Assembly: GCA_947561395.2 (NCBI GenBank)
Contig: OX387190.1
Span: forward strand, 23,306,858-23,370,857
Reading direction: 5' to 3'
Source: Buxus sempervirens
Taxonomy: Eukaryota > Streptophyta > Magnoliopsida > Buxales > Buxaceae
Length of the DNA: 64,000 bases
The translations under genes and the position numbers were made by a program. Below, one piece after another: positions 7,085-64,000 of the stretch. The notes under the pieces are model-generated. The model was not told the DNA's origin. It saw nothing but the letters and a program-made list of their open reading frames with translations, and ran no database searches. Positions within the stretch are counted from its first letter, which is position 1; every line of letters begins with the position of its first letter.

Positions 7085-9690
7085 CTCAGATTGATCTCTC
7101 CGCCAAAACCCCTTTTTCTTTTTCTTCCTCTCGACGCAAACCTCGTTCGGCCATTTTCTTTCTTCCGCCAAGCTCACTTCACTAGGCGAGAGCTCCCCTT
7201 CCTCGGCGCTAGCTCCTTCCAACTCAAATCAAATGATCGACTCAACTTCTGGTCGCCACCTCAAGGTACGCACTCTCTTAGATAATTTTTCTTGTGGCTA
7301 GGGCCGTAATCTCCAAATACAATTTTCGTTAAAAAAATTTTAGGCATTTACTTAAAACTTGCTCTTCCACCATTTGATTTATCTTACTGTTGATTTGGAC
7401 GTGACTTTGATTTCTGATTTATACATTTACTGCACTTGACATGGAACCCCAAATTTTCCGTTCACTCACTCTAGTGGTTTGCGCGGCCTTAGACAGCCGT
7501 TGGCGCTAGATCAAAATTTCTATTTCCATTTGTTTTCTTTTTATTTCCTAGATACTTCTAGGTTGGATTATGAACTAAATTTGGATGGTGGTTTTTACCT
7601 TTTTCTCACTTCGACAAGAACCCCTAATTTTCTATTCACGGCCAACTGTGTGCCAAGTCCTTCTGACTGAGCAGCACTCGGCCCACCTTGGCGCACCCAA
7701 TATTTTTCCAACTTGTTTTTATCTTTAAGTTTGCTACCAAAATCTTTAAATTTTATTTTCACCTGCTTCAACCCATTGTTGTATAATTTTTCTTTATTTG
7801 CAGTAATTGGCTGATATTGCTTACTAATTCTATTTTATTTTGTACTTGTTATTTTTCTATTCCCAATTCGTCTGGTTTCAAATCTTAGATGACTAGGACC
7901 TCTTCCGGGAATCCCTCTAAGAGGGCTAGGGTTGAGCCTAGAGATGATCAGTTTATTTCGGATAGGGAGAAGGAGATATATGATAGATATCTGCATCGTC
8001 GGCCGGTTCTAGTTGAGAGGGAGGTTAGGTTTGAGGACTTTGCCCCTTCCATAGAGGATATTTTCTGAGTCAGCGGGTGGCTACCCGTTTTCAGTGGCTT
8101 CACTCCCACTTGCGAGGAGCAAGTACAGGAGTTTTACAGTAACTTCCATGACATCTCTCCTGATCGTACCTCCTTCCATGTTTATATTAGAGGTACCCAT
8201 TTTCAGATTTCTCTTGATTTCATAGCTGCCAGCCTTCGTGTTCTTAGGGTGGAGCACCCATTCTATCCTTACTCCAGTGAGACCATGCCCGACTACTCTG
8301 CTGTCGCCACATTTCTTACCAGTCAGGCGATAGAGTACACTGAAGTGGGTCCTCTCCATACCTCGGGATTCTCTGCTGACACCTATATTCTGTCGAGGAT
8401 CGTCTTTACCGATCTTTGGCCTGTTTCTCATTTTTCTACTCTTCCCAGCTCTCATTCACTGTTTCTTTACGCCATACGGAGGGGCGATTCCATTGACCTT
8501 CCTTCGCTGATCATTTCTATCATGCTTGGGGTTTATGATGATCGTAGGCGATCGGTTGCTTTACCCTACAATTGTCTGATATCTAGACTCATTTCTGCTT
8601 CCCCAGCTGTGTATCCTAGTTTTACTGCCTTGACTCCTAGTCAGCCTATTTGCAGAGCCACCACGAGTATCACCCGTGGTAGGAGGGCTGCTGACACTGC
8701 TGCCGTGCCTCGCCCCTCTGTTCCTTCGACTTCCCTTCCTACTCCTGGGGTTGCTCCCCCTTTACCTGTTATACCATCTTCTTCATGTCTTTCCCTTTTT
8801 ACGGATATTCCCTCTGCTTCTGCTCTACCCCCTTCTACTGATATTCCCTCTTCTTCTTCCTTTCCCTCCTTCTCTGACTTCACGTCTTCTTCTTATTTTC
8901 CCTCTTCCACTGACCTCCCATCTTCTTCTGTTTCACCTTCTTCCGATGCTCCCCCTGCTCCTTCTTCTGACCCTCCTCCCTCCACTATTGAGGGTCTTTC
9001 TACTCTCGTTACTACTTTGACAGGTGAGGTGAGGACACTACAGGAGATAGTGAGGGCACTGGGCCATCACATGATCCACACGGTGAGGCACGTGGGCGAA
9101 ATGTCGAGAGCTCAGACAGCAACACAGCAGCGCATGGAAGAGATGTCGGGGGTTCAGACGTCGATACGGCAGACCCAGGTGGAGATGCTATGGGCTATAT
9201 CGACCCTGCGGGGACATGTACAGTTTATGCATGCCACCCACCGCCGGTTCTTGCAGTGTTTCCTGGACGATGATGTGTCCAGTTTTGAGGCTGCTGCGAA
9301 TGATGATTCTGGTGACAAGGGACCTAGAGGAGGTGATGATGGTGGAGCTGGAGGGGACAGTGATGGAGCTAGTGCAGCGGGGGCCGAAGATGGTGATGCT
9401 GATGCAGGAGAGAGTGCTGGTGATGGAGGGGATGAGGCAGGACCTTCTAGCTGACCTTTTCTTATTTCTTGAAGTCTTTGTATTTTATTTTTATTGCCTA
9501 TTTTGGGTTGTACTCCAAACCTTGTATTTGGGTTTCATATATACATATTACCGATCTTTTGTTCACTTCTTGTCTATATATAAAAAAAAATTTTGAAAGT
9601 TTAATTGTTTTTATTTGCCATTTACGCTGCAAATTTAATCCAGCCGATTTACAATTCAATATTTGTCTTTTATACAGGTAATTTATCTTA
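7085..9690 (+). mobile_element. Unassigned element around a plant-transposon protein ORF
   Basis: A plus-strand transcription-unit-like block between two Gypsy fragments of opposite strand. It starts with a pyrimidine-rich leader (7085-7265), then a GT donor-like site at 7265 (AAGGTACGC) and a TTAG acceptor-like site just before an ATG at 7888, suggesting a 5' intron. A long ORF follows and then an AT-rich tail. No terminal repeats or target duplication were found, so the limits are soft. Such ORFs are usually part of non-autonomous LTR-type elements, so it is handled as a fossil; that it is an independent element is an inference. Confidence 0.45.
7888..9454 (+). pseudogene. Putative plant transposon protein, gag-like (fossil)
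   Basis: Resembles the 'putative plant transposon protein' domain often found in Ty3-type and non-autonomous plant retroelements: a globular part (about 8100-8620, including RGTHFQISLDFIAASLRVL), a long Pro/Ser/Thr-rich linker with repeated PSSS/FPSS motifs (about 8700-8990), a predicted helical segment (about 9000-9250, EVRTLQEIVRALGHH) and a very acidic Asp/Gly/Ala tail (9265-9454, DGGAGGDSDG type). The longest open frame is 8249-9454 (401 codons); sequence upstream to the ATG at 7888 looks like the N-terminus. It is broken by a small number of changes. The molecular role is unknown. Confidence 0.5.
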
Positions 9691-30466: not shown

Positions 30467-33239
30467 TGTAGACACCCCAAAATTGCACTATTTTTTATAA
30501 ATCTTGAAGGAGAGAAATATTTTATTAGAATTTTCAATTCTTAGCATTGGGTTTGAGATCCTTAACCCATTTGAATCCAAAGCCATAAAGGAAAAGGCCC
30601 AAATTCAATCTTTTGCACAAAGTCAAACTTTTCCGGTTGAATTTTGTTGACTTTTGACCCCCAAAAATGAAATATTTTTTGAGGCAAGATTTCAAGATAA
30701 TTTTTCTTGGTAATTAGGTTTTTAGCAATGTTATTTCATAAATGAATTTTTTGAGCCTTTAAATCTTGACAAATACCTTGCTATTAACAAGTTGAATCTT
30801 TTTACCGGACCTGAAAAACCGGAATTTAGCCTTGAACTAGAAAGTTGACTTTTTATTCACTTGGAATTTGGGTCTGGAACTAATCTTAATGGATTCAAAT
30901 GGGGGGTGTTTGCTTATTTACATGTAATATCTTAAGTAAATGGAGATTAAAAAATACGAGGACATTTACTTAAATGATATTACATGTAAATAAGTATTGC
31001 CTGTGCAGATAAGGGTCAATGCCATGCAGAAGCTGTGCAGAGAGTCATTTTTGCCCTGTAATCGACATTATAGTTCGGATAAAAGCATTTTTGTTTGTAG
31101 CCGACATTATATTTCGGATACAAGCTTTTTTCTTTGTATCTGAAATATTATGTTGGATACAAAGATTTCTGTTTGTATCCGACCTGTGTTGTCAGATACA
31201 CGTGTTTTGCTTCAATTTGGAAAACCCCACAAAATCTCCCTTATTTACGGCCATAACTGTATCTAGGAAGTGGGAATTCTCCAATTTGTCCTCCGGAATT
31301 GATCAAATTCCACCAATTCAAGCTTTAGGGATGAGTTGGAAGGTTCTAGACACTTTTTTGCATCTACCCTTGTGACTATCCTACCCTTGGCCTTGCCTAT
31401 AAATAGAAGGCTCCTCCTCAAGCAAATGACTGGAGGATTGAAGGTCTAAGTCTTTTGAAGAAGAGGGGAAACTCTGCCCAAGTTCTTGCTCAAGTCTTTC
31501 AAGTATTCAAGGTAAGCTTCTACCTCCTTCTTCTTCTTTTATTTCAATTCCAAGCATTCTCTCCTTCTACCTTTCTGTAGTGTAACGCCTTGGGTGTGCT
31601 TGTAACTCCAAACCACCTCTAAAGTACCTAAGGCACCCTCTCTAGCCGTAAAACGTGAAGAGAGAGCCTAGGGAAAAAGATGTTGGGATGGATCCTTAGG
31701 CTTAGAACCTACCTTGAATGATATGAATGTTGATTTTGTGCTAATTATTGGTTCAGTGTGATTTGGATTTAAATTTGGAGAGGATACAAGGATCCATGCT
31801 CTCTATAGCAATGGATCCCAATCTTCTCCTAGAAATGTGATTTCCACCATGAACACACACTTCTCACCTTTTAGTCAAGAATAGGCTAGATCTTGGATTC
31901 ACTATGCTCAATATGGTAAATCTGAGATCCATGGCCTTAGAGTAAAATCTTAGGACTTCATGAGAGTGTTTTTAATGATTTCAAGCCAATTCAGTCGAAT
32001 CCACTTGCACACATGCACTGTTTTTGCTCTTTTACTCAAGGTTTTCAATACAGGGCAGCAGCTGTACCTTGTCTTAAAACACTCATAACCTCATCATCTG
32101 GATGAATTTTTGAGTGATTCCAAAGACATGTGATAGGTGGGAATATCTAGTTTGTATCTGGAAATTTTCATCGGTTTCTATGAAGCCATTGTTTGATACC
32201 ATCTGATCAAATTCGGCAGGTCAGTTCAGTTTAGATTACTGAACTTGTCACTTTGATCGAGCACCACTTGCTCATTTTAAATCCGTTTCGAGTGATTTTA
32301 ATCTCTGTGTTTCCCTTGAGGAGCCTATTTTCAAATCCAACAAATTTCAAGAGTTTTCACTTTGATTTGTGTCTTGTGTGCTTGATTGACTCAGAGCTGC
32401 TCTGTAGCCAAGTTCTGGGTTAATCTGTGATCCTCTAAGCATGTTTGAGAGGTCACACAAATCATGAATGAATGGAGTTTTGTGTGAGGCCTATTTCGTT
32501 TGAAATATGGCACCTCATACTTCATCCATGCAAGTTTTCAAGGATTTATATGGAGCCAAACTCCACGAATAGGTTTTCAAAGTTGCCTATTCATTACTTT
32601 TTCTTATTTACAACAGCAGATTTGATTGAGTATTCCTCTTTTGTCTTAAATCGGATCGAGTTGGGATTTTTACTGAGTATTCTACCACATACCAGCTTTC
32701 AAATGATTTTGGTTTGATGCAATTTGAACTTGATTTGAATGGTTTATGATTAATTGAGGTTTTCAAGCTCATGTAGTTTCATCTTCTATCAAATCTGTCG
32801 GATTTGGTTTGGTTTGATTTTCTTCAATATTTACATTTATTTTCATTTACTCGTGAGGTCTTAAAGGTGATATATCCATAGAGAGAGTCCATATTTCATT
32901 GGGCTACTCATATGGAAGAATCACACATGTCTTTGTTTTCTTTCAAGCATTTTTTAGTTGTTTTGTTAGCAAGCATTTTTTTAAAGCATGAACAGCATAT
33001 GGCAACCATCTTGTACGGATGAGTGGGGGTGTCTAATACCTTCCCCTACTCATAACCTAATCCCCTTACCTGATCTCTAGATTTTACCATGAACTAGAGT
33101 TACTTTTAACTCTATTTTTGCATCTTTATGATCCCTTTGGTGTCCATTCACACCTTAACTTGAATGGTGGCGACTCCAACCCTTTATCAACCCCATGTGA
33201 TGATCAAGAAGTCATTGAGGTGATTTTCCATGTCTTACA
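30467..33239 (+). mobile_element. Solo LTR, family D/F, copy D (2.77 kb)
   Basis: TGTAGACACCCC ... GTCTTACA with a perfect 5-bp duplication CTTAC (30462-30466, 33240-33244), inserted in the Copia 5' LTR. It carries four 25-bp palindromes on a 38-40-bp pitch (31058-31199) and a TATA box (TATAAATAG, 31398). The long downstream part has no coding capacity and ends in a segment with GGTGGCGACTCC, also present near the 3' ends of families A and B. Copy F (56526-59203) is a clear relative. Confidence 0.88.
31058..31199 (+). repeat. Four 25-bp palindromes, 38-40-bp pitch (LTR D)
   Basis: Imperfect palindromes at about 31058, 31098, 31137 and 31175, for example GTATCCGACCTG/..GTCAGATAC at 31175-31199. 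They lie 200 bp upstream of the LTR's TATA box and are more worn than the arrays in LTRs F, B and C. Confidence 0.8.
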
Positions 33240-40193: not shown

Positions 40194-42340
40194 AACTACA
40201 AAATTTTGGGTGTATTAGAGGTGAGTTTTACCCGCGCTTTATTAAAACCTCAGGTAATAACATATACAGGGGCGCTCCTGCCCCAAGCGCCCCAAAAACC
40301 CGAGTGGGTTTAGATTTTACTACTCATTAACGGCGTTTATTCTTATAAGCGCCATAAATTGTTTTAAGTGGCCGCCGCTAAAAGAAACTCGTCAAACCCC
40401 TACGTCCTCCGCTTCTTCCTCCACTCTTCCTAATTCCAATCGAGCATTTCTTCTCAAGCCCTAGCCATATCTACCTTCAATCACATTTCTCTTTAGCTAG
40501 ATTCTTCTCTCCCAATTGGCTTTGCATCAACATTTCTCGAATCGGCCCAGGGAAGTTCAACGAACATTCAATACGAGATCCAGCGTTCTTTCACGATATC
40601 TCTTTCGAAAATTTTTTTTGCCTCTGATTCTTTCGAGCTTTCTTTGCAAGCTTCTGACCCTCTAATGGCAGATTTTCCATATTTTTTTGGCTGATGAAGG
40701 CAATTCCACCACCGAAATCAGGTAATTTATATTTTCTTTTCTTTCTTCTTTCATTTTGATTTCTCTTACTAGATCTGTAAATTCTTTCATATTGATTTTC
40801 GTTAGATTCGCTTCTGATTTCTTCCTCAATGTTCGTATTTTTTTTTACTTTTTTCTCTCTTTTTCTTCCCCTCTTCTCTCCGACGTCGACTGCGCTTACC
40901 GTCGGTCACGCCGTTTCAGCCAGAACCCTGTGACCGGCTGTATAAAACACGGCTGCTCTTGAAGTTTCTTTCAAATGATCAGATCTTTGTTAATTACTTC
41001 CGCTATTATGTTATCTGCCTTTGTCCTGTTTTCGAGTTTTACCTTCATGTTAGGGTAATGAACATCAAAAGGTGTAGATCGATTTCTTTTCTTTTTTCTT
41101 TATCTCGAATTGATTCTCTTTTTGCTTAGAAGCTTTCAAGATGTTAATCCTCTGTTGAATTGAGTGATTTATGCGATTCTAAGATGTTAATCCTCTGTTG
41201 AAAGATTGTTGTGCTGAGAAGTATTGTGCATGGAGAAATGTAACAGAGGGATTAAATTGGTTTGTCAACTTGACATAGGGATGGCATTATCACACCAAGA
41301 AGTATGATATTTGTGATGACTGCTACAATTGATCATCATGCAAGATCAATATTGCTAGGCCTTGAAAGTACAACATATTCCTACTTTCTTTCTTATCCAT
41401 TGGACTCTCATGTAACTTCACATTGTCCACTTTGTTCTCTTGTGACCTTGTTTCCTCCATGGAACTTAGAGGAGCAGAACTACTACATTGGCTTCTGGAT
41501 GGGTTAGCATTGAATTTTTGATTTGGATGAGATGTTATATCACTCAATCTCCTTGAGCTTGATTTTTGCTTGGTCTCTGTAGAGATAATCTAGATGCCTG
41601 CATTTGGTGCCCTAGTCCTGCAGAGCCTTATCTACTAGGTTATGTTTTGATTACATTTGGGCTAGCAAGCCTTTATGTTTGGCACCATTTCAGTTTCAGT
41701 TTCTCCAGAAACCAGAGTCCTCATTGAGTTAAATCCTTGTTTTGATGACTTTGTTTTGTTGACTTAACATGTGTAACATTCTGCAGATGATGAAATATCT
41801 GGACTTATCTCCTTATATTTTTATTGTGCATGGGGAATTCATCAATTTCTATATTGCCAGCAGTGTGCCAGATTTGGAACTTGAAATCTGATTGTTAAAA
41901 AGGGATGAAACTCATGTTTACCATGGATTATGCATCCTTACTTGTGCTTCGTCAATCTATTTTGTGCTGATACTTTGTCATCCGTATATTGATTGTTCGT
42001 GCAATGTTCATGTGAGATTCATCCAAGTTGACTCTATTTTTTTCCCCTAAACACAGCCTATATCATCGAGTATTTCTTGGATACTAAAGCTCAAGAGATT
42101 GAGTTTGAAATCACAAGGTTGAGGCCAAGGTTAGTCCTTGATCCCTCTATTCTGAGATACCCATGTATTGTGACTATAAAACTTGCATGTTTGCTGTTTA
42201 AAAATTCTGGTTTTCACATTTTGGATTCAACGTTTAATATTGCAATGGAGCTAATAAAAAGCAAGCATAATCCATTTGAAAATCTAATTGAAACACATCT
42301 TTTGTAATAAACAAGTAATCTCTTATCAATATATAATATC

Positions 42341-43585
42341 ATGAATAGAAGTTGGATTCAAAAATCAAGGCTTAGTGTAGATTATAGAGAACGAGTACAA
42401 GGATTTATTGAGCTAGCATTTGCTCGTGGAGCCACCTTGAATGGGAAGATAAGGTGTCCATGTCCAAAGTGCAACAATGTTTTCTATCAAGATAGGGACA
42501 CATCATTCATCCATATGATATTGAATGGATTTGATCAAAATTACAACATATGGGTTTTTCATGGGGAAGAAATAGATAATCGCACTCTTGCAACAAATAG
42601 CATGATAGATGATGGAGCTAATGAAAATGATACCGGTGATGAAATGGAGACAATGTTACGTGATGCCTATGGATTTCAAAATATTGAAGGGCAAAGAGAA
42701 TGTCCATCTGAAGATGTAGATATTTGTCCTAATGTGGGTGTTGAAAGATTTTATGAATTGCTACATGATGGTGAACAAGAGTTGTACCCTGGATGTAAGA
42801 CGTATACAAAGTTATCTTTTATGGTTAAACTATTTCACATCAAATGCCTCAACGAGTTGAGTAACAAGGCATTTACTATGTTTCTTGATGTATTCAAAGA
42901 AGTATTACCTGAAGGGTCAACTTTACCGGATACATATTCAAAAATGAAAAAGATTATTTCAGATTTGGGATTAAAATATGATAAAATTGATGCATGCCCG
43001 AATGACTGCATGTTATATTGGAAAGAGTCATCTGACAAACAGACATGTGATGTGTGTGGTACTTCAAGATGGAAGTCTGGAGATGACAATTCATTGCGGA
43101 AAAAGGAGAATAAGGCATCCAAGATCTTCCGTCATTTTCCATTAAAACCACGTTTACAGCGTTTGTTCATGTCCTCAAACATTTCCTCGAATATGACATG
43201 GCATGCAGAGAGTCGCATTAAAGATGGGATTTTAAGGCATCCTGTAGATTCCTTGGCCTGGAAACATTTTGAAAATAATAACCCAACTTTTGCAACAGAT
43301 AATCGCAATGTTAGGCTTGGGTTAGCGAGTGATGGCTTTAACCCATTTAGAACAATGAGTACTGCATATAGCATCTGGCCAGTTGTCCTAATTCCATATA
43401 ATTTGCCCCCTTGGTTATGCATGAAACAACCAAATATGATCTTCGAGCAGGACCATCTGGGCCATCTGGGCATGCTTATACCAGGACCATCTGGGCCAGG
43501 AAATAATATTGACGTCTACTTGAGGCCACTGATAGAAGAATTGAAAGACTTGTGGGAACCTGGGTTGGACACTTATGATGCATAA
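42341..43585 (+). CDS. TNP2-type CACTA transposase, truncated
   Basis: 414-residue ORF starting MNRSWIQKSRLSVDYRERV. Residues about 1-78 form the transposase-associated domain with a cysteine pair (CPCPKCNN) and a GFDQNYNIWVFHGE end. From about residue 130 the TNP2 transposase domain follows (FYELLHDGEQELYPGCKTYT), with a zinc-finger-like CPNDCMLYWKE ... CDVCGTSRW and GLASDGFNPF. In the family this nuclear protein binds the CACTA ends and catalyses excision and insertion. The ORF ends at a TAA where relatives continue (ETYDAYK...); matching sequence runs on in frame to about 43700 (RAALLWTISDFPGYE), then is lost. At under half the usual length it is almost certainly inactive. A 35-bp tandem duplication follows at 43711-43780. 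Confidence 0.85.
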   Translation: MNRSWIQKSRLSVDYRERVQGFIELAFARGATLNGKIRCPCPKCNNVFYQDRDTSFIHMILNGFDQNYNIWVFHGEEIDNRTLATNSMIDDGANENDTGDEMETMLRDAYGFQNIEGQRECPSEDVDICPNVGVERFYELLHDGEQELYPGCKTYTKLSFMVKLFHIKCLNELSNKAFTMFLDVFKEVLPEGSTLPDTYSKMKKIISDLGLKYDKIDACPNDCMLYWKESSDKQTCDVCGTSRWKSGDDNSLRKKENKASKIFRHFPLKPRLQRLFMSSNISSNMTWHAESRIKDGILRHPVDSLAWKHFENNNPTFATDNRNVRLGLASDGFNPFRTMSTAYSIWPVVLIPYNLPPWLCMKQPNMIFEQDHLGHLGMLIPGPSGPGNNIDVYLRPLIEELKDLWEPGLDTYDA

Positions 43586-46682: not shown

Positions 46683-47277
46683 CCTGGTGTAAGCACCTCA
46701 TTTTTGCGCTCCTAGAAGAGCTGGAAATGAAAAACTCGGCTAAAAAGTCAAACCCTAAGGGGTCGAAATTTGACCTTTTGATCAAGTGATAATTGGCCAC
46801 CTTACTTTATCTCAATGGATAGAAAATCCCGACACGAGTCCAACGCAACTAAGTTTGCTGGAATCGGAGTCCGGATGAAGGTTCTGTGGGCCGGTCAAAC
46901 TTGAGGGTGAGCCAAAAGTTGACTTTTTTCGAATCCCATGCCAGGTGCTTAGCTCTATATCATTGGATAGAGAGCTCCGATATGAGTTCAACGCAACTGA
47001 GTTTTCTCAAATTGGATTCCGGATGAAGGAGATATGAACCGTCAAAGTTTCCGAGCAGAAAAACCGGAAACTGCACACGTGGCAAAAAGCCGCACACATG
47101 GCGAGTGGCGCAAGAAAATATCTCGAGGGGCAATCCGTAAATATCCAAACATGCAAAATATCCCAGGGTTTAAAGCAAAATTTCACAGGGGGCAATCCGT
47201 AGATATCCAAAAGTGTCAAATCGGTCGAATCGGTAGAATCGGTCAAGTCGAGGGGCAAATCCGTAATTTTTCGATTT

Positions 47278-47522
47278 GTATCTGACCAAATATGCCGGAT
47301 ACATTTGCTCCTCTTCATATCCGGACTCAAATGTCGGATACAAAGATTTGCTCGGCGAGATTTGCGCCGATTCCCCGATAAATTCGCGGCGGCATTAAAT
47401 TTTTGAAATAATTTTGTTTGTATCCGACATTTTATGCCGGATACAAAGGAGGTTCAGTGTATCCGACAGTAAATGCCGGATACAAAGGACATATAGTGTA
47501 TCCAACATTTAATGCCGGATAC
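47278..47522 (+). repeat. Five 25-bp palindromes, 39-bp pitch (LTR B)
   Basis: Starts at 47278 and 47317, then after a gap at 47420, 47459 and 47498: exactly 39 bp between neighbours in each group. Consensus GTATCCGACA-N5-TGCCGGATAC. The last unit ends 13 bp before the TATA box at 47535. Confidence 0.9.
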
Positions 47523-47534
47523 ATTAAGTTTGTC

Positions 47535-47543
47535 TATAAAAGC
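47535..47543 (+). promoter_or_regulatory. TATA box of solo LTR B
   Basis: TATAAAAGC directly downstream of the palindrome array, at the expected U3/R boundary. Confidence 0.6.
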
Positions 47544-48948
47544 ATAGCAGCCACCTCTGGCTGGGGGTTGGTTTCTTTTTGCTGTTTTTTACCTCTCTTC
47601 TCCAACCTGTTCCCATCAGAATCCTGCCTTTTTTAACTCCCTCAGCCCTTCACCACCTCCCAAGACCAATCCAAGTCCCTCCCATCATTCTTCTCCTTCT
47701 CCTTCTTCACTTGCTCTCCTTACCAAGGATTGGAGATATTGCTGCTACTGTCAAGGAGGAAGGTCACCAGCTGCTGTACCACCTCAAGGAGGCATCTCCA
47801 CCTTGCTCAAGGGTCCAAGAACCCCCAAGTATTGCTTACCACTAACTTGTATTTCACATATATGAGTATGAAGGTCTTTTGAACACAATAGTAAGCTGGG
47901 TTTCTTTCCCTTTACTGCAAGTCCACCCAAGTCTTTACATTGCATGCATATTCTTCTATTTTGTTGTGACATGAAGACCTCCAAAAGTAAGAGGTTCACG
48001 TAGGGTTCCTTGGGAGTACGAAAGTTCTTTTTTTATGCCATATTAATCCGCTGTTTTGAGTACTTTTGGGGAGGAGAATGTTGTTCCAAACTTGATCTCA
48101 TGTACCCCCCATGTAACCCCCCTTCTCTTTCCCTTCTCTAAAGGCTTCTGTTTCAATCATGGAGCATTGGTTTTGGATTTTGTTAGAATTCATAGGGGAT
48201 GCATGTGATCATCTTTGTTGTGCCCCTTTTGCATATGTGTAGCTTTGCTAATTTTATTTTTCATGCATATAGTCTCGCCGGCGGTTTATCTCATACATCG
48301 TTTCATCTTGATTCCTTGAGTGCAATGAACACACACGCCCCCTCCAATATGTGATGCCCGAGTTGCTGTTGTTTTCTTGTTTGTTGTTATTATTGACATG
48401 TTTCCCCCTTGTGCATGTTCCCCCTAACCCCTTATCTTTTACTGTTTCTTACATGTGCACATGAGTATGATCCTTCGCCCCCTTCACCCACCGTTTGGCA
48501 CCTACAAGCACGTTCCTTTGCCCCCTACGATCCTTAGCACCTTGCTGTTTTTCTTTACCACCCACAGCCCCCTTTGTCATGCTACTGATTAGGCTCCTAA
48601 ACCCCCACCACAGCAGCTGCCCCGGCAAGTTGCTCGTCTATTCTCTCTTTTTGCACACCCAACCCCCACTGCATGTGTAATTGCTGTCTTTTTATTAAAC
48701 CATGCATGCTATTGTTGAGGCGCATTAACATAGTCTTCATCATTTACTGCCCTTAGAGGCATATGCACGCAAGCATGATCCCACGCCTTTGCCTTGTAAA
48801 GAAATCCAAAAGAGAAGCCAAATGAGGCTTCTCCCCCGCACCTGAACCAATGTGGGCCCATCCAGGGGCCCACACAGCTTATGGAAGACCCCTAGGAGCC
48901 CCTAGAAACAACCCCAATGGCTAAACCCCGAAAAGGCCATTTTTAAGG

Positions 48949-49012
48949 TGATCTGGCAACTCAGGCCGGATCACCTATGGCCTGTGTGTATCCGGCAATT
49001 AGGGCCGGATAC
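48949..49012 (+). repeat. Two further palindromes in the 3' part of LTR B
   Basis: TGATCTGGCAA-N-GGCCGGATCA (48949-48973) and GTATCCGGCAA-N-GGCCGGATAC (48988-49012), again 39 bp apart, about 1.4 kb downstream of the main array. Confidence 0.8.
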
Positions 49013-49099
49013 ATGATAAAAATACAGTTTTCATGATTTTGTGTTCCTTGCCGGATTTTCATGTCATTTTTAGCAAAACCAAATAAACCAACAAGGTTT

Positions 49100-49770
49100 C
49101 TGGGCCACCCAGAAACCCAACTTGGGACCTGGACCGCCGGTCCAACTTGGTACATCCGTGGGCCTTCCAACGGGGCCCACCAAGCCCGATAAATCCAAAA
49201 GCATGCAAATAAGCAAGATTAAGTGGAATTAGCTAATCAAACCGGGTGGGCCAAACACAATGCGGTCCACCAGGACTTGTCTGTGTGGAATGATGTTTAA
49301 ATTGCGTGGTTTGGCCAAGACCCAGGGCAAGGGCCTATCGGGCCCACCAAAGCCCATTAACCAACCCGAGTAAGGGTGCAAACCCCAAGCTTCAAGGAAT
49401 TTGGGCTTTCAAGCCCGAAACCGGACCATGGGCCCCAAGCCCAATGTCCAAAACATCTTGGCTAATTTAAATAAAGATAAATCCAAAACACTCTTGGCAA
49501 CCATCATGGGGGCCCACCCCGGGGCCCGCCAACCAATGCAGACCAACCTTTTTTGCATGAAAATCACCTAAAATTCCAACTTAAACAATTTAGTAAAATC
49601 AACTCACTAACCTAAGCCCAAAGGGCCTCCTAGGCTTAGGCGGAGGCCCACCAAAGGCACGTGGGCTTCACCAAGCCCACCAAGGACATCGTGGGCCTTC
49701 CAATGGGGCCCACCCAGTCAGACTCAGATCACCTGAACGAAATAAGATAAAATCAATTAAAGGGACCCAC
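49100..49770 (+). repeat. GGGCCC/TGGGCC-rich segment of LTR B
   Basis: Dense GGGCCCACC, AGCCCACC and TGGGCC motifs, also present in LTR A at about 3295-3910. TGGGCC/T motifs are known plant site II (TCP-type) elements; here they lie downstream of the TATA box, so the role is unknown. Confidence 0.65.
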
Positions 49771-50058
49771 ACCATTCAGGTGGTCCCCCCAGACTTAACC
49801 AAGTTGCATATCAGATTAGGAATCGAGTGAGAAACCAAAGTAAGCTGACTCAAACCAGGGAACCCACGAGACCCATCATCCAACGGGGTGGACTAGGGTG
49901 TCTACGGACTTCCCCAAACCGCAACCGAGACCCTACTTAGAATCTCAAGCCGCAGACCAGGCCAATAGACAAAATTAGGCACCCAGGTGTCCGCCTGCAC
50001 CCCATCCGGCGGTGGCGACTCCGAAATTTTCCCGTACGGCGTTTCCAATGCGCGCACA

Positions 50059-50630: not shown

Positions 50631-50950
50631 TGTTGAAATTCAGCGTGTACAAAGTAACATTATGATCGAGCACCAATTGCAGAACGGAAAGTTTCTATTA
50701 TGCGCTAATTCAAGATCCGAAGATACGCTTTCCTATTCTTTATTTAGGAAACGATTTCTTACCTAAATATTTGTTTAGAAGTTTCCCTTATTGTTATATT
50801 TAGCAAGCAACCAGTTTAGGAATGTTTTCCCTAAAGCTGTTGCTGAATCTTGTATATATAGATGTACAGACCCATTGATTAAAATAAGAAAAATACAGAG
50901 AATTGTTTCTCACGTACACTTTCTATTGTCTTCTTCCCCATAATTTTACA
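50631..50950 (+). repeat. 3' LTR of Copia 1
   Basis: 320 bp, TGTTGAAATTCAGC ... ATTTTACA, with a TATATATAG promoter-like box at about 50862. It differs from the 5' LTR at about a dozen positions, mostly C/T or G/A. Confidence 0.92.
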
Positions 50951-50955
50951 TACTT

Positions 50956-52999: not shown

Positions 53000-54330
53000 A
53001 TGGTTCAAGACAAAGACCAAATCAAGCACACAAACCAGGAGGAAGATGAAGCTTGTCTGTCTGCCATGCAATTGACTAGCGCAGCAGCACTATCCATGGT
53101 CATGAATGCAGCCATTCAGCTCGATGTACTTGAGATAATAGCTAAAGCTGGCAATGGAGCTCATATCTCCCCTTCAAAGATTGTATCTCATCTCCCCACT
53201 GAGAACCCAGATGCACCGGTCATGCTTGATCGCATTCTGTCTCTCCTATCAAGCCACTCTATTCTAACTTGCTCTACATGTACCCTCGAAGATGGGCGAG
53301 TCGAGAGGCAATTCGGGCTTGCTCCCATCGGTAAATTCTTTGTCAAAGACGATGATGGACTGTCCCTAGCGCCATTGTTGCTCTTGAATCAAGACAGAGT
53401 CCTCATTGAGAGCTGGTAATTAACAAGGAACAAGTTCCTCTTTTCTTCTGCTTTTTTTTAATTTGGCATGACGAACTTGTGTTCCCTGCAGGTACTACTT
53501 GAAAGATGCTGTTCTGAACAGGGAGGTTCCATTTGACAAGGCTTGTGGAATGACTGGATTTGAGTACCACAGCATAGACCCACGATTCAACAAGGTCTTC
53601 AACAAGGCAATGTGTGCTCACACTTCGGTAATCACGAAGAAAGTTCTTCAGACATACAAAGGGTTTGAAGGCTTGAACTCGTTGGTAGATGTTGCCGGGG
53701 GTGTTGGCATCGCACTTGACATGATCATCTCCAAATACCCCAACATCAAGGGCATAAACTTCGACTTGCCCCATGTTATCCAAGAAGCCCCAGATTTTCC
53801 TGGTACACCAATCATGTTTCAAATTAACAAACATCTATCATAAAGATGTTAGAATTTAAATTTTGAGAGTGACAATAAATTTTGGTGCAGGTGTGAAGCA
53901 TGTTGGTGGAGATATGTTTCTTAGCGTTCCATCGGGAGATGCCATTTTTTTGAAGGTAAATTCCATTGAAACTTTTACAGTTAAGTTTTCCTCTCAATAT
54001 TACATGTTCATTGTTGTGTTAATGTGCCTACAGTGGATATTGCACAACTGGAGTGATGAACACTGCTTAGTAATTTTGAAGAACTGTTATGAGGCATTAC
54101 CGAAAACTGGAAAGATGATCGTAGTTGAATCAATCCTTCCAATGGAACCCGAAGCCAACAGCTATGCCAAATCTGTTTTTCAGCTTGACAGTATAATGAT
54201 AACTTATAACCCAGGAGGAAAAGAGAGAACCCCGGAACAATTTGAGGCACTGGCAAAGGAAGCTGGATTTGCCAATGTCAAACTTGTGTGTCGTGCTTTT
54301 AACTGTTGGGTCTTGGAATTTCTGAAGTGA
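53000..54330 (+). CDS. COMT-like O-methyltransferase (class II), intact
   Basis: S-adenosylmethionine-dependent O-methyltransferase of the plant caffeic-acid/flavonoid family, expected in the cytosol, transferring a methyl group to a phenolic hydroxyl; the substrate cannot be read from sequence. Four exons, all with GT/AG introns: 53000-53415, 53492-53802, 53891-53955, 54034-54330; phases agree and give 362 residues, the normal length. Residues about 20-125 are the dimerisation domain; [10 protein letters not shown] matches the family's MNQDK active-site strip. The SAM-binding loop is DVAGGVG (205-211), with Ala where DVGGG is usual. Catalytic residues line up as His268 ([10 protein letters not shown]), Glu296 (VESILP) and Glu328 (GGKERT). 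The start is supported by a conserved leader, TATA box and relic 2. Two broken relatives lie upstream. Confidence 0.93.
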
Positions 54331-56525: not shown

Positions 56526-59203
56526 TGTAAACACCCCAAATTGCACAGTAAAAATGATGAATAATTGGCGAAAATAATTATCTCCTTTGAAACCGGCACA
56601 AAATTTGAGAAAATAGGCATTTTTCCTTGTATCCGACAACTCAGGTCGGATACAAGCGTATATCTTTATATCCGACATAAGTTGTCGGATATAAGCAGCT
56701 CTTAATGTATCCGACATCATATGCTGGATACATATAGGTGCTCTTGTATCCGACCTGATATGTCGGATACAAGCTTTTTGCTCAGAATTAGGGTTTTCCG
56801 AGAGTTTTCACTTTTTACCATCATATCCTTCATTAAAGGAGTGGAAATAGCCTTAGAGTTAAGGTCGGTGGGCTCTAGACATTATTTTGTGTCTAGCATC
56901 ATGCAAACCCTAACCCTAGCCTTTGCCTATAAATAGGAGGCCTCTCCTCAAGCAAATGGCAATTAACTCTTGCCAAGAACTTTTGCCAAGAAGTTAGAGA
57001 TCAAAGAGCTCCGAGTGAAGAGGGGAACCGCTGCAGTCTTGCTTCCAGAAGCCCAGGTAAGCCTCAAACCTCTCTTTAATTTTCTGTTTTTACATTCTAG
57101 ATCTAGATCTCTTCTTCTACCTTTCTGTAGAATAAGGCCTCTTCTATGTGTATGAAAACCCTTCTCCTACTCAAAGTACCTCGAGACTCCCCCTAGCCGT
57201 AAAACGTGAAGGCGGGATCTAGGGGAAACGAGACTGGGGATTGATCCTAGTATTAGAACCTATTTGAATAAGCCTTGTGATTCTATGAAAACCATTCCAT
57301 ATTCAAAGTACCCCAAGATTATCTTGAAGAACCGTGTTTAACGGGGAGAGAGAACTAAAGGAAACGATAATGGAACGGAACCCTAGGTTGTTCTAGAACC
57401 CTTTTGATTGATCTAAATGCATGCTATATGTTATTATGTTGAAATAAGTCTTGTGATTCTATGAAAACCGTTCCATATTCAAAGTACCCCAAGATTATCT
57501 TGAAGAACCGTGTTTAACGGGGAGAGAGAACTAAGGGAAACGATAATGGAACGGAACCCTAGGTTGTTTTAGAACCACATCTGATTGATTTAAATGCATG
57601 CTAGATGTTGTTATATTGTTCTTGAATGGATTTTTATACACATACACACATAGCACCTTTTTTGTCGGATTTGGCTCATATTTCGGATTCATTGCATTCA
57701 TTGTGATAAATCTGGAATAAATAGCCTTAAATAATTCTGGAATATATCTGGTTGGTTTTCAATGTGATTTTAAGCAAGTTTTATTGAGTATTGAAGGCCT
57801 CTAGGCTCAACGTCTCGGTTTTGGGCATTTTTGCTCACTTTTGGGGTTTTTGGCATATCCTTTCCAATCGGAGAGGATGGTGAGCCGAACTTGTGCCCCA
57901 TTTCTTCCTAGAGGCTCTTCAATATCTTTTTAAAATGGTTTTGATCTATCTTGCACGGATCACACACCTCTTATCACTGTTTTAAATTAATTTTACTCAA
58001 AAAAAGGCTTAACTTGACAGCAACTGTACCCCAACTTCGAACACTCGTAACTTCATCGTCCGGATGCATTTTAGAGTGATTTCAGAGCCATGGGAAAGGT
58101 GGGTCTGTCTAGTTTATGTCTGTAAAATTTCATGAATTTCTATCAAGCAGATTTTTGACACCTCTCTGCCGAAGTTGATAGGTCATTTCAGGTTTGATTA
58201 CAGAACCTGTCACTTCGACAGAGCGCCATGTGTTCGTTTTAAGTCCAATTCGAATGATTCTTGTTTTTGCGTTTTCCTTTGGAAGTCTAGTTTCAAATCC
58301 AGTTGGTTTCATATTTTTTTGACTCCATTTGTGTCGGGAGCAGCAGATTTACTCAGAGCTGTTCAACAGTACTTTTCTGGGTAAATGTGTGATCTTCGGG
58401 GCCTATTCGGGAGATCACCCAAGGCACATCCGAATGCATTTTTGTATGACGCTAGTTTTGTTTGAAAAATGGCCATATAGACTTCACTCACACCAAATTT
58501 CATGGATTTATATGGAGCCGATTTTTCTAAATGAGTTTCCAAAGTTGCCCACTTATCACTTTTAATCATCTCCAGCAGCAGATTTTAAAGGAACATAACT
58601 CCTAGGATTTCAACCGGATTTTATTGAAATTTTGCATGAGTCTCTTATTTACCATAATCTTTCAAATGGATTTGGTTCGAGTCAATTTAAAATTGGATTT
58701 GAATGATTTCAAGACAAATGGTTCTTGCTTTTACCGAATTTCCCGGATTTAACTCAACTTGGTTTTGTGCAACTTTTGCTTTGATTTCCATCTTTTGGTG
58801 GTATTCCAGAAGTGATATTAACATAAAAGAGGATCTGGAATTCATTTGGATTTTCATGTGAAGATATCATACACTTGTCCTTTTTCAAGGTTTTTAATGA
58901 TTTTTAGCAGGCTTTCTTATTTTTTAGCATGAACAACACTTGGCAACCACCTTGTATGGGTGAATGGGGGTGCCTAACACCTTCCCCCATTCATAATCTA
59001 ATCCCCTTACCCATCTCTGGATTTGATTTTCAAGTAGGGTTATTTTTGCTCTAGTATTGGCCTTTTAGCTCTTTTTTATTATTTTTGAAACTTTTGGTAT
59101 CCATTCACACCCCAAAAATCTGAATGGTGGCGACTCTCCCATTTTACGTTGAGCCCGTGTGATGACGGAGGGAATCATCTCGGTGATTTTTCCATGTCTC
59201 ACA
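56526..59203 (+). mobile_element. Solo LTR, family D/F, copy F (2.68 kb)
   Basis: TGTAAACACCCC ... GTCTCACA with a perfect 5-bp duplication GGATG (56521-56525, 59204-59208), inside the LINE. It shows four 25-bp palindromes (56629-56770), a TATA box (TATAAATAG, 56938), an internal duplication of about 185 bp (around 57285-57420 and 57470-57600), and the GGTGGCGACTC block near the 3' end. No coding capacity. Confidence 0.9.
56629..56770 (+). repeat. Four 25-bp palindromes, exact 39-bp pitch (LTR F)
   Basis: Starts at 56629, 56668, 56707 and 56746. Units read GTATCCGACAAC...GGTCGGATAC, TATCCGACATAAGTTGTCGGATA, GTATCCGACATC...GCTGGATAC and GTATCCGACCTG...TGTCGGATAC: 9-11 bp arms around a 3-7 bp centre. 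Spacers of 14 bp have unrelated sequence. The array ends 168 bp before the TATA box. Confidence 0.92.
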
Positions 59204-59877: not shown

Positions 59878-61452
59878 TCAAGTTGGAGTGTGGATGTCTA
59901 GAACTCCCAACTTGCTAAGATGTGTTTGAAAAGCAATCCGTCCCAATGGTTTTGTGAGTATGTCGGCAATTTGTTTCCCGGTTTGTACATAGGCTGTTTC
60001 AATCTCCCCATTTTGAATCCGTTCACGAATCGTATGACAATCCAACTCAATGTGTTTGGTGCATTCATGATACACCGGACTCGCTGCTATATATGGCGGC
60101 TTGGTTGTCACAAAACAATTTTGCAGGGTCACGATGGTAACATGTAAGTCTTGTAACAAGTATCGTAGCCAAGTAAGTTCACATGTGACCACTGCCATAG
60201 ACCTGTATTCGGCTTCTACTGAAGATCTGGACACTGTGGTTTGTTTCTTGCTCTTCCAAGACACAAGAGCTTTCCCAAAGAATATACAATATCCCGTGAC
60301 TGACCTCCGTGTAGTTGGACACCCAGCCCAATCTACGTCACAATATCCAACTAATTTCAATTGATTATGTGACGAGAAGAATAATCCTTGGCCTGGAGCC
60401 TCCTTTAGGTAACGCAAGAGGCGATGTACAACATCAAGGTGTGGCCTTCTTGGTTGCTGCACAAAATAACTAAGAGTGGAGACGGAATATGTGATATCTG
60501 GTCTCGTGATAGTAAGATAGATCAATTTTTTGACTATTCTGCGATAATGAGTTGGATCCTTGAGAAGGTCACCATCGGTTGGGGTTAGCTTCAAATTTTG
60601 TTCCATTGGAAATGTGGCAAGCTTTGCACCAAGTAAACCTACTTCTTCCAATATGTCCAGTGTATATTTCCGTTGACAAATGGAAATTCCAGCCTTGGAA
60701 CGTGCAACCTCTATCCCAAGGAAATACTTCAAGGATCCAAGATCCTTGATCCGGAAATTTAGAAACTGCTTGAGATCACTGATTGCATTCTCATCGTTTC
60801 CTGTGATGATCATGTCATCAACATAAAGTAAGATGGTAGTAAAGGAGTTACCGTACACCTTAGTGAATAGAGAATAATCTGCCCCTGATTGTTGGAATCC
60901 AATATTTTGAATCTCAGAAGAGAATTTGTGAAACCAACTTCGAGATGCTTGCTTGAGTCCGTATAGGGACTTATTGAGTCGGCACACAACTTGCTCCCCC
61001 TGTCGACGATAGCTAGGTGGAGGATGCATATAAACTTCCTCAGTGAGATCGCCATGGAGGAAGGCATTTTGGACGTCCAGTTGGTGGAGGTGCCAGTTAC
61101 GAACTGCAGCAACAGTCAAGAGGCAACGTACAATGATGAGTTTGGCAACAGGGGCAAAAGTCTCTTTGTAGTCGATGCCCTCGCGTTGCGTGAAACCTTT
61201 GGCAACAAGATGAGCTTTATATCGCTCGACAGTACCATCAGAATGATATTTGATCTTGAACACCCATTTACAACCAATGGGCCGATGATCAAGAGGAAGA
61301 GGAACCATGGTCCATGTGTTGTTGGCTTCAAGGGCACGAAGCTCGGCTGTCATGGCTTCAACCCACTTCAGATCTTGACTGGCCTGTTCATAAGACACTG
61401 GTTCGACCAAGTGAGAGACATTGTGTATAAATTGCCGATGAGTAAGTGACAA
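59878..61452 (-). pseudogene. Copia 2 RT-RNase H reading frame (fossil)
   Basis: A single 524-codon open frame with a complete plant Copia RT ([40 protein letters not shown] active site; KDLGSLKYFLGIEVARSK) and RNase H (SWKSKKQTTVSRSSVEAEYR; ADILTKPLGR). In living relatives these enzymes make cDNA in virus-like particles. It is the best preserved pol sequence in the window, within an element that is split by an insertion and therefore treated as a fossil. Confidence 0.9.
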
Positions 61453-61482
61453 ATTGGAGTAGGATACATACCGAGCAAGGGG

Positions 61483-62490: not shown

Positions 62491-64000
62491 TATAAGCACC
62501 TCATTTTTGCGCTCCCAGAAGAGCCGGAAAGGCAAAACCCGGCTAAAAAGTCAAACCCTGAGGGGTCAAAATTTGACCTTTCGATCAAGTGATAATTGGC
62601 CATCTTGCTTTATGTCATTAGATAGAGGGCTCCGATACGAGTCTAACGCAATTGAGTTTGCTCAAATCGGAGTCCGGATGAGGGTTCTGCAGGCTGGTCA
62701 AACCTAAAGGGGAGCCGAAAGTTGACTTTTTCTCGAACCCCGTGCCAAGTGCTTAGCCCTATGTCATTAGATAGAGGGCTCCAATACGAGTCTAACGCAA
62801 TTGAGTTTGCTCAAATCGGAGTCCGGATGAAGGTCCTGCAGGCCGGTCAAACCTAAAGGAGAGCCGAAAGTTGACTTTTTTCGAACCCCGTGCCAGGTAT
62901 TTAGCTCTACATCATTGTATAGAGGGCTCCGATATGAGTCCAACGCAACTGAGTTTGCTCAAATCGGAGTCCGGACGAAGGAGATATGAGCTGTCGAAGT
63001 TTCCAAGCAGCAAAACCGGAAACTGCACACGTGGCAGCCAATGCAGCAAAATATCTCAGGGACCAAATCTTAAATATCCAAAAGTCACTAAAAATCTCAG
63101 GGACTAAACCAAAATTCGCAGGGACCAATCCGTAATTGCTCAAAAGTGTCAAATCGGTTGAATCGGTCAAGTCAAGGGGCAAATCCGTAATTTTTCGATT
63201 TGTATCCGACCAAATATGCCGGATACACTTGCCCCTCTTCATATCCGGACTCAAATATCGGATACAAAGATCTGCTCGGCGAGATTCGCGCCGATTCCCC
63301 CACAAATTCGCGGCGGCATTAAAATTCTAAATCATTATGTTTTGTATCCGGCATTTAATGCCGGATACAAAGAGAGGCATGTATAGCCAGCTTCATTTTG
63401 GCTTTTTCCAAGTATTCTCCTTCATCCGAATCCTTCCTCCCAGCACCCTTTTTGCCTCCACCAACCCCACTCCACTCCAACACCTCAAAACCTATTGCAT
63501 TGTTCTTCTTCCCCACCTCTCTACTAACACAACAAGTGATTAGTTGCTGTTGTGGTTGCTGGAGAAGAAAGCTCCAGCCCTTGTACAAGCCCCCAAAGAG
63601 GTGTCTGCAACCCCCAAGGAGGCTTTCCAACCCCACCCCACCTCAAGATCAAAAAAAAAACTTCTTGCATCTTCCTTCTTCTCTATCTTCCTACCAAGAT
63701 AAAAGGAGAGCCTAGCTGCTGTTGGTGAAAGAAGAAGCAAGCTCCAGCTGCTGTCCATCCTCAAGGAAGTGTCTCCACCTCCACTAAAGGGCCAAGAACC
63801 TCCAGGTAAGGCTCCCTATCATGTTGTATTCCTCATACATTAAATTCAGATTTTTCTGTTGATTTTCTTACGCTTGCTTTCCTTCTTTGCATGGGCTTGT
63901 TCCCATGTTATTTTCTCATGCATTTGATTCTCTCTTCATGGCATGAAGCCACCATAAGTGAGGGTTCCACGTAGGTTTGTTTAGGGAGCATGGGAGTCTA
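62491..64000 (+). mobile_element. LTR of family A/B/C, copy C (cut by window end)
   Basis: Starts TATAAGCACCTC (TG end decayed) within Copia 2. Three head-to-tail 149-bp blocks with TTGAC motifs (about 62560-63000; key word GAGTTTGCTCAAATCGGAG at 62654, 62803 and 62951), where A and B have two. Three 25-bp palindromes (63202, 63241, 63344) and a pyrimidine-rich leader follow. Without its 3' end it cannot be called solo. Confidence 0.85.
63202..63368 (+). repeat. Three 25-bp palindromes (LTR C)
   Basis: GTATCCGACC...GCCGGATAC at 63202-63226, a second unit 39 bp later (63241-63265), and GTATCCGGCATTTAATGCCGGATAC-type at 63344-63368 (a nearly perfect palindrome). Confidence 0.88.

Follow-up and report, generated by a model that had tools for sequence, protein, structure and literature searches.

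Arrays of 25-bp palindromes at a 39-bp pitch lie upstream of TATA boxes in retrotransposon LTRs of Buxus sempervirens and are candidate cis-regulatory modules

Introduction

The closest described counterparts of the sequences reported here are the palindromic repeated motifs (RMs) of Sireviruses, which are Ty1/copia retrotransposons. According to the accessible parts of PMC2829016, RMs cluster upstream of the TATA box in the long terminal repeat (LTR), all but one of them carry a CGG-CCG signature, and 77 of 79 RM copies in linkers lie upstream of ENV. In that comparison, made among Ty1/copia elements, RMs were called Sirevirus-specific and absent from classic elements. Palindromes of maize Sireviruses (CACCGGACNNNGTCCGGTG) are hotspots of small interfering RNAs (siRNAs) and are said to define a cis-regulatory region (PMC10760457, PMC5311732, accessible parts). 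Here we analyse a stretch of 64,000 nucleotides of the Buxus sempervirens genome (assembly GCA_947561395.2, contig OX387190.1, positions 23,306,858 to 23,370,857, forward strand; hereafter the window), in which a solo LTR, termed LTR F, and three further LTRs (B, C and D) carry arrays of palindromes.

As far as the available text of PMC2829016 goes, the arrays resemble RMs in being dyad-symmetric CGG-CCG clusters located upstream of a TATA box, with further clusters ahead of an accessory gene, and their ATCCGGC..GCCGGAT differs very little from AATCCGGCTWRCCGGATT, the RM of citrus. They differ from RMs in their host, which is a Ty3/gypsy element of the Ogre/Tat type wherever a coding region was identified, and in the accessory open reading frames (ORFs), which are antisense and encode a plant mobile domain (PMD). 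They further differ in their exact 39-bp pitch and in a distance of 11-12 bp to some TATA boxes; the words 'pitch' and 'spaced' do not occur in the parts of PMC2829016 that were accessible. The maize palindromes are alike in forming LTR clusters in a cis-regulatory region and unlike in superfamily and sequence.

Two other systems share single features, as described in the accessible portions of the respective papers. The VANC targets of VANDAL DNA transposons are also transposon-wide arrays of a non-coding motif whose copies evolve together, but VANC21 motifs all point the same way and their binding protein is encoded by the element (PMC5735166), whereas the motifs studied here are palindromes with a predicted binder. 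Grande and Retand, which are Ty3/gypsy elements, likewise carry accessory genes in antisense orientation, in the interval from pol to the 3' LTR; those of Grande are transcribed from their own promoter, the antisense ORFs of Retand carry TRP28 rather than PMD, and no palindrome array is described at these promoters in the sections available (PMC7264820, PMC11963269). Our literature search, whose coverage mostly excluded subscription papers, found no description of 39-bp palindrome arrays in gypsy elements.

Results

A sequence-only reading of the window had described four palindromes in LTR F with every step 39 bp, and all four are found where it had placed them (Table 1). The unit of array F is TATCCG-N11-CGGATA, which makes 25 bp with one extra base per side; the third palindrome has one arm mismatch and the second begins with ATATCC. 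In the window this unit occurs 10 times exactly and 19 times with at most two mismatches (exact copies included), compared with means of 0 and 0.77 in 30 dinucleotide shuffles. The claim that the other three LTRs have the same design holds for array D, which has four palindromes at 39 bp with more mismatches, whereas arrays B and C have the motif with other steps (39, 103, 39 and 39 bp in B; 39 and 103 bp in C). Across the window and the loci fetched for comparison (L numbers; L001-L004 omitted as overlaps), palindromes up to 160 bp apart lie at distances of 38 (4 pairs), 39 (95), 64 (1), 77 (4), 78 (54), 103 (3), 116 (4), 117 (24) and 142 bp (3). Leaving aside 103, 142 and the single 64, every distance can be made up of 38s and 39s. 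Arrays B and C account for two of the 103-bp distances, and the third is the sum of 39 and 64 in L020.

The pitch is a property of the whole genome. The pattern TATCCG-(gap)-CGGATA, read with gaps of 9-13, occurs 41,617 times in the 676,531,615-bp source genome, compared to 96 occurrences of the reversed pattern. CGGATA followed by TATCCG at a gap of 2-32 bp is found 30,621 times (control: 911), and 26,061 of these pairs have a gap of exactly 16 bp, which corresponds to the 39-bp pitch (control: 5). Hence 85% of the gaps fall on one length among 31, and the absence of a preferred 39-bp spacing, named beforehand as the outcome that would speak against the arrays, is not what the genome holds. 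The longer pattern TATCC-N13-GGATA-N16-TATCC was counted 25,170 and 25,128 times, with 0 and 2 for the control. Genome counts are complete, and listed places are taken from the start of contig C1. Moreover, six LTR copies, fetched by means of the TATA-side flank and with the palindromes left unused (taken from 78 listed matches other than self-matches), all contain two to four palindromes at 39-bp steps; L058 and L060 have two recognisable ones each.

The placement upstream of LTR TATA boxes, also proposed in the sequence-only reading and shared with Sirevirus RMs, was borne out in 20 of the 21 LTR arrays of all kinds that we examined, six elements being counted with both LTRs. A TATAAAT lies 156-168 bp downstream in 18 of them, array D has its box at 199 bp and array B has a TATAAAA at 13 bp; array C is followed by a degenerate TGTATAGCC alone, 12 bp after, with no clear TATA box. 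Genome-wide, the combination of one half-site with a TATA box (CGGATA-N{4,24}-CTATAAA) was counted 1,955 and 2,019 times, compared with 293 and 321 for the control, and in 87 of the 100 places listed the gap is 11 or 12 bp, although 21 gaps were allowed. There are two geometries: the TATA box is ~156-199 bp away in LTRs of the E, F and D kind, whereas LTR B and an internal array termed array 3 have it at 11-12 bp.

LTR F aligns piecewise, at 71-83% identity, with the LTRs of ~23-kb elements in which arrays recur ~20.4 kb apart. The full-length relatives of LTRs F and D are Ty3/gypsy elements of the Ogre/Tat type, and judged by LTR identity they are young. One of them, E1, was read as three separate pieces (L005-L007). 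Its gag runs from L005:7954 onward, an ORF with a G-patch spans L006:3-2282, and a single ORF at L006:3242-6202 has the domain order RVT_1, RT_RNaseH_2, RVT_3, H2C2 (just below cut-off) and rve. The primer-binding site TGGCGACTCTGCTGGGGAC, which may be of the Ogre tRNA type, lies at L005:4504, directly 3' of the 5' LTR. The two LTRs of E1 are 98.2% identical, and those of five other elements are 99.4-100% identical, three of them compared over a partial LTR only. E1 contains an additional RNase H between RNase H and integrase, which is a mark of Ogre and Retand, and two antisense ORFs with a PMD (PF10536, 5.3e-13 and 6.3e-14), a type of ORF present in 57% of Ogre elements (PMC6317226, accessible parts). 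On these grounds we assign E1 to the Ogre/Tat type. An assignment to the Ty1/copia Sireviruses was rejected, since reverse transcriptase, RNase H, second RNase H and integrase follow each other in gypsy order. The host assignment covers the E-type elements and is not extended to LTRs B and C.

In five E-type elements arrays occupy four kinds of place, the LTR and three internal ones. Array 1, in the LTR, has four palindromes, as has array 2 in the 5' internal region ahead of gag. Array 3, again with four palindromes, is found ~15.6 kb after the LTR array, and in five of five copies a CTATAAATGC lies 12 bp beyond its last palindrome on the antisense strand; in E1, the element in which ORFs were scanned, an antisense ORF with a PMD/DUF7745 domain follows this box. 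Array 4, of two palindromes, is close to the 3' LTR and ~1.3 kb upstream, in antisense direction, of the second PMD ORF of E1; just beyond its palindrome three of six copies have a weak TTTTATAAG and the other three TTTACTTAAG. In E1 the internal clusters thus precede antisense PMD ORFs (arrays 3 and 4) or are TATA-less (array 2), and none precedes a sense ENV as Sirevirus RMs do. No PMD was found in the 10 ORFs scanned among the 14 of the window that reach 150 amino acids, and a PDB sequence search with one PMD ORF gave no matches.

The arrays are common to LTRs that otherwise do not align. LTRs B and C align with other LTRs in the array only, and LTR B has no blastn similarity outside the array to E-, F- or D-type LTRs (the fetched loci, F and D). 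Over seven LTR arrays the palindrome arms are 0.94 identical. Spacers had been described as unrelated, which is nearly right: the identity of their inner 10 positions is 0.43 within an array and 0.47 for the same slot across families, compared to 0.30 when shuffled. This faint similarity within arrays raises simple tandem duplication with alignable spacers, the second outcome named beforehand as contrary, to a weak degree. The centres are slot-specific. In six of the seven LTR arrays the TATA-proximal slot (slot 4) reads CCTGA or TCTGA, pointing at the TATA box, with CCTGT in D, and the antisense-proximal palindromes read the same in array 3 (5/5) and array 4 (6/6); the TATA-proximal slot of LTR B is without this reading.

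The loop of the first LTR palindrome also occurs inverted (ACTCA to TGAGT) within the same flank, in L012 and in 27 of 100 places listed. Counted by eye over these 100 of 832 places, this flank context holds 61 ACTCA, 27 TGAGT and 12 other loops, and where listed places follow each other on the same strand at 15-23 kb, their loop orientation agrees.

Further observations concern the elements, their arrays and the window. The LTRs hold a TGGCGACTC that resembles a primer-binding site near the 3' end (window positions 4133, 33168, 50013 and 59128; L005:4421); in E1 the distance from this copy to the true site downstream is 83 bp. At G000:C1:8464577-8571857 eight LTR arrays follow each other on one strand in steps of 15,318-15,327 bp, which looks like a tandem concatemer of elements with shared LTRs. 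A 9.5-kb element (L016/L017, G000:C1:3384000-3399500) has arrays of the LTR, 2 and 4 kinds, no array 3 having been found in it; judged by its length, it looks like a deletion derivative that lacks most of gag-pol. The TATA-less second array of LTR B lies in a stretch common to L022 and L023. It shares a AAATGGCC..TTTT-like stretch with the array 2 copies of L005, L008, L012 and L014, which on the antisense strand comes shortly after the palindrome that contains ACTCAG; the L010 counterpart reads AAATGTCC. A degenerate near-palindrome centred on ACTCAG or ACTCC is found ~77 bp past array 4 at L016:2726 and L009:5268, on the antisense and presumed transcribed side. PMD matches recur in pairs ~3.4 kb apart, e.g. 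at G000:C3:45640023 and C3:45643445. Within LTR D, window positions 30906-31005 form an inverted repeat like that of a miniature inverted-repeat transposable element. ORFs of the window match a tnp2 transposase (42311-43582), Transposase_32 (8069-9451), a copia reverse transcriptase (59881-61482, minus strand) and a fragment of an O-methyltransferase (53860-54327). Neither Rfam, at gathering scores, nor ARAGORN gave a match in the window.

Table 1. Coordinates of LTRs, palindrome arrays and TATA boxes in the window (TSD, target-site duplication).
Feature	Position	Strand	Remarks
Solo LTR F	56526..59203	+	TSD GGATG; ends TGTAAACACCCC / TGTCTCACA
Array F, four 25-bp palindromes at 56629, 56668, 56707, 56746	56629..56770	+	39-bp pitch
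TATA box CTATAAATAG of LTR F	56927..56936	+	~157 bp after array
Solo LTR D	30467..33239	+	TSD CTTAC; related stretch 50631-50951 without insertion
Array D, four decayed palindromes	31058..31199	+	39-bp pitch
TATA box CTATAAATAG of LTR D	31397..31406	+	199 positions after array
Solo LTR B	46688..50058	+	TSD CCTGG; aligns with E/F/D LTRs within array only
Array B, two palindromes, 103-bp step, three more at 39 bp	47278..47522	+	
TATA box CTATAAAAG of LTR B	47534..47542	+	12 bp after last CGGATA
Further array inside LTR B, a pair of palindromes, GATCTGG..CCGGATC in the first	48950..49011	+	TATA-less both sides
Array C, three palindromes, steps 39 and 103	63202..63368	+	LTR of B kind, runs off window

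Discussion

We propose, with a probability of roughly 0.64 as judged from sequence, that the arrays are cis-regulatory modules, i.e. rows of sites for a putative dimeric DNA-binding factor. Such a module would be a row of often four dyad-symmetric sites with the half-site TATCCGR and a centre of ~7 bp, held at a 39-bp pitch. It would serve the TATA boxes of at least two mutually non-aligning LTR families and, inside Ogre/Tat-type Ty3/gypsy elements, the promoter of an antisense accessory gene, upstream of which the sites are located. An array of dimeric protein sites, one of the options raised in the sequence-only reading, is the best-supported of them: the pitch is strict, arms are kept while spacers have diverged, and the arrays recur before sense TATA boxes and one antisense TATA box. 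The position of the arrays, their pitch, their fixed TATA distances, their presence in non-aligning LTRs, the agreement of their half-sites and their abundance are all directly observed. A protein would bind the arrays as a dimer, and this factor may switch or boost the sense LTR and antisense promoters together. A host transcription factor is likelier as the candidate than an element-encoded one. The TATCC half-sites may resemble binding sites of MYB-related factors.

The idea that the sites are placed on one face of the DNA, at nearly four helical turns, fails on arithmetic, since 39 bp at 10.5 bp per turn make 3.71 turns, or ~257 degrees per step, so that consecutive sites point to different sides of the helix. 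The distance between half-sites that face each other over a spacer is 22 bp, or ~2.1 turns, and the effective dimer could also span the spacer. The suggestion that the CpG-bearing cores are methylation targets received indirect support. Among 130 distinct array palindromes we counted 71 half-site substitutions, 25 of which are CpG transitions, as would fit copies that are methylated and decay. T3-to-A and T1-to-G changes make up 25 more, most of them due to variants fixed in arrays 2 and 4.

Several observations weigh against cis-regulatory modules. No TATA box lies within 200 bp on either side of array 2 in five of six copies, the exception being L014 with a TATAAAA 114 bp downstream. All six copies of array 4 lack a standard TATA box, and none was found on either side of the second array of LTR B. 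The direction of array 3 is not certain, with sense activity possible, because on the other strand a TATATAT lies 139-147 bp downstream in five of five copies (L006 also has a TATAAAT at 174). Genome and array counts represent related copies and not independent events. Palindromy as such allows RNA or cruciform readings, and some changes within single palindromes are symmetric (TAACC..GGTTA in six of six copies of array 2 and in L058; GATCC..GGATC in L023). Finally, 117 PMD matches were scored, and no array lies within 1.5 kb of any of the best 30; PMD genes are therefore not generally array-associated.

The alternative that survives best, though we consider it unlikely, is that the palindromes act as RNA hairpins in the transcript, in packaging, in dimerisation, or as Dicer-processed hairpins that feed siRNA silencing, as has been proposed for the palindromes of maize Sireviruses, clusters of which are siRNA hotspots. 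Read as RNA, array F folds at -83.4 kcal/mol (z -13.4), unmatched in 200 shuffles, but a strong fold follows from the construction of a palindrome and does not decide the matter. An inverted loop still forms a hairpin, the symmetric arm changes would preserve one, and by position arrays 2-4 and the 3' LTR array would fall within the full-length sense RNA. The LTR arrays and array 3, in contrast, lie outside the adjacent 5' transcript because they are upstream of its TATA box. The first palindrome of array 4 is moreover asymmetric (GATCC..GGATA, read on the element's strand) in all six copies.

Arm pairing bears most directly on this alternative. In 42 thinned palindromes, a sample that includes at least two rows that are not regular array members (L009:5268 and L016:2726), pairing exceeds the shuffle at positions 7/17 (76 versus 53%) and 8/16 (64 versus 35%) and, to a lesser extent, outside these; the central 7 nucleotides do not pair above the shuffle. 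However, when right arms are swapped within an array, own and swapped arms pair equally well at 7/17 (0.946). Own arms do better at 8/16 (0.70 versus 0.57) and 10/14 (0.50 versus 0.39), while the other positions are equal or higher when swapped. In permutations, the combined score of 7/17 and 8/16 was reached 58 times out of 5000 with 23 arrays, many of which are copies from a single family, and 777 times out of 5000 with 12 hand-picked representative arrays. Site-by-site covariation of the stem was dropped as support for RNA, the array control having shown that the agreement is mostly array-wide, with some own-arm excess at 8/16 and 10/14. A structured transcript, which the sequence-only reading had offered as its second option, is thus possible by its fold and disfavoured by the equal pairing of swapped arms at 7/17.

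The agreement between half-sites is seen genome-wide at position 7, where 28,399 of 41,238 palindromes are of the GG/CC type, 8,452 of the GA/TC type and 4,387 mixed, compared with 15,795 mixed sites expected from independent halves. The GG/CC type carries the CGG-CCG signature of Sirevirus RMs, whereas the GA/TC type, to which array F belongs, does not. Array-wide agreement fits a family-specific half-site preference of a DNA-binding factor, to judge from these base counts; old array duplication would also produce it. Half-sites agree array-wide more than pairwise, which favours sites for a protein rather than an RNA stem under selection.

A special case of the proposed regulatory modules, somewhat more doubtful than RNA hairpins, is that the binder is the element's own protein, the product of an antisense PMD ORF or of another ORF, which would activate or protect the element as VANC does on VANDAL. 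Arrays both at the LTR and upstream of the E1 antisense ORFs speak for it, as does the agreement of half-site type across the sites of one array. So does the 9.5-kb L016/L017 element, which is too short for a full internal region and keeps its arrays. On the other hand, Pfam finds no known DNA-binding domain in four E1 antisense ORFs, and the 30 PMD loci read are without arrays. The DOWN motif CATGCAGTTT of the PMD proteins MAIN/MAIL1 (MORC1 promoter; PMC9899485, accessible text) was compared by eye and does not match TATCCGR..YCGGATA.

Equally doubtful is a neutral minisatellite without function, whose units would have spread by slippage during replication or reverse transcription and whose arms would be kept by hairpin-templated correction and loop flips: ACTCA loops or their exact reverse complement in one flank context, the faint spacer similarity within arrays and occasional 38- and 64-bp steps agree with it, but arms conserved despite spacer divergence, slot-specific centres across families, the same array in otherwise non-aligning LTRs and a TATA distance fixed at 11-12 bp in one class do not.

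The cis-regulatory modules could also be part of a retrotransposon circuit, in which one trans factor, perhaps the antisense PMD product, binds the LTR arrays and also those of its own antisense promoters. On the sequences at hand we hold such a circuit to be improbable, to the same degree as the element-encoded binder. If true, a set of elements, including unrelated or defective LTR elements, would be switched or shielded from silencing together, and factor and half-site would co-evolve.

An architecture of palindrome clusters before an LTR TATA box and an accessory gene is now seen in giant elements of the Ty3/gypsy superfamily, where the clusters keep a strict pitch and also occur at an antisense promoter. 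This suggests that different superfamilies have converged on a regulatory module or exchanged it. Four 25-bp sites at a 39-bp pitch provide a concrete probe for a factor that would act on very abundant plant retrotransposons, and the arrays offer a test of whether such palindromes are activators, silencing targets or both.

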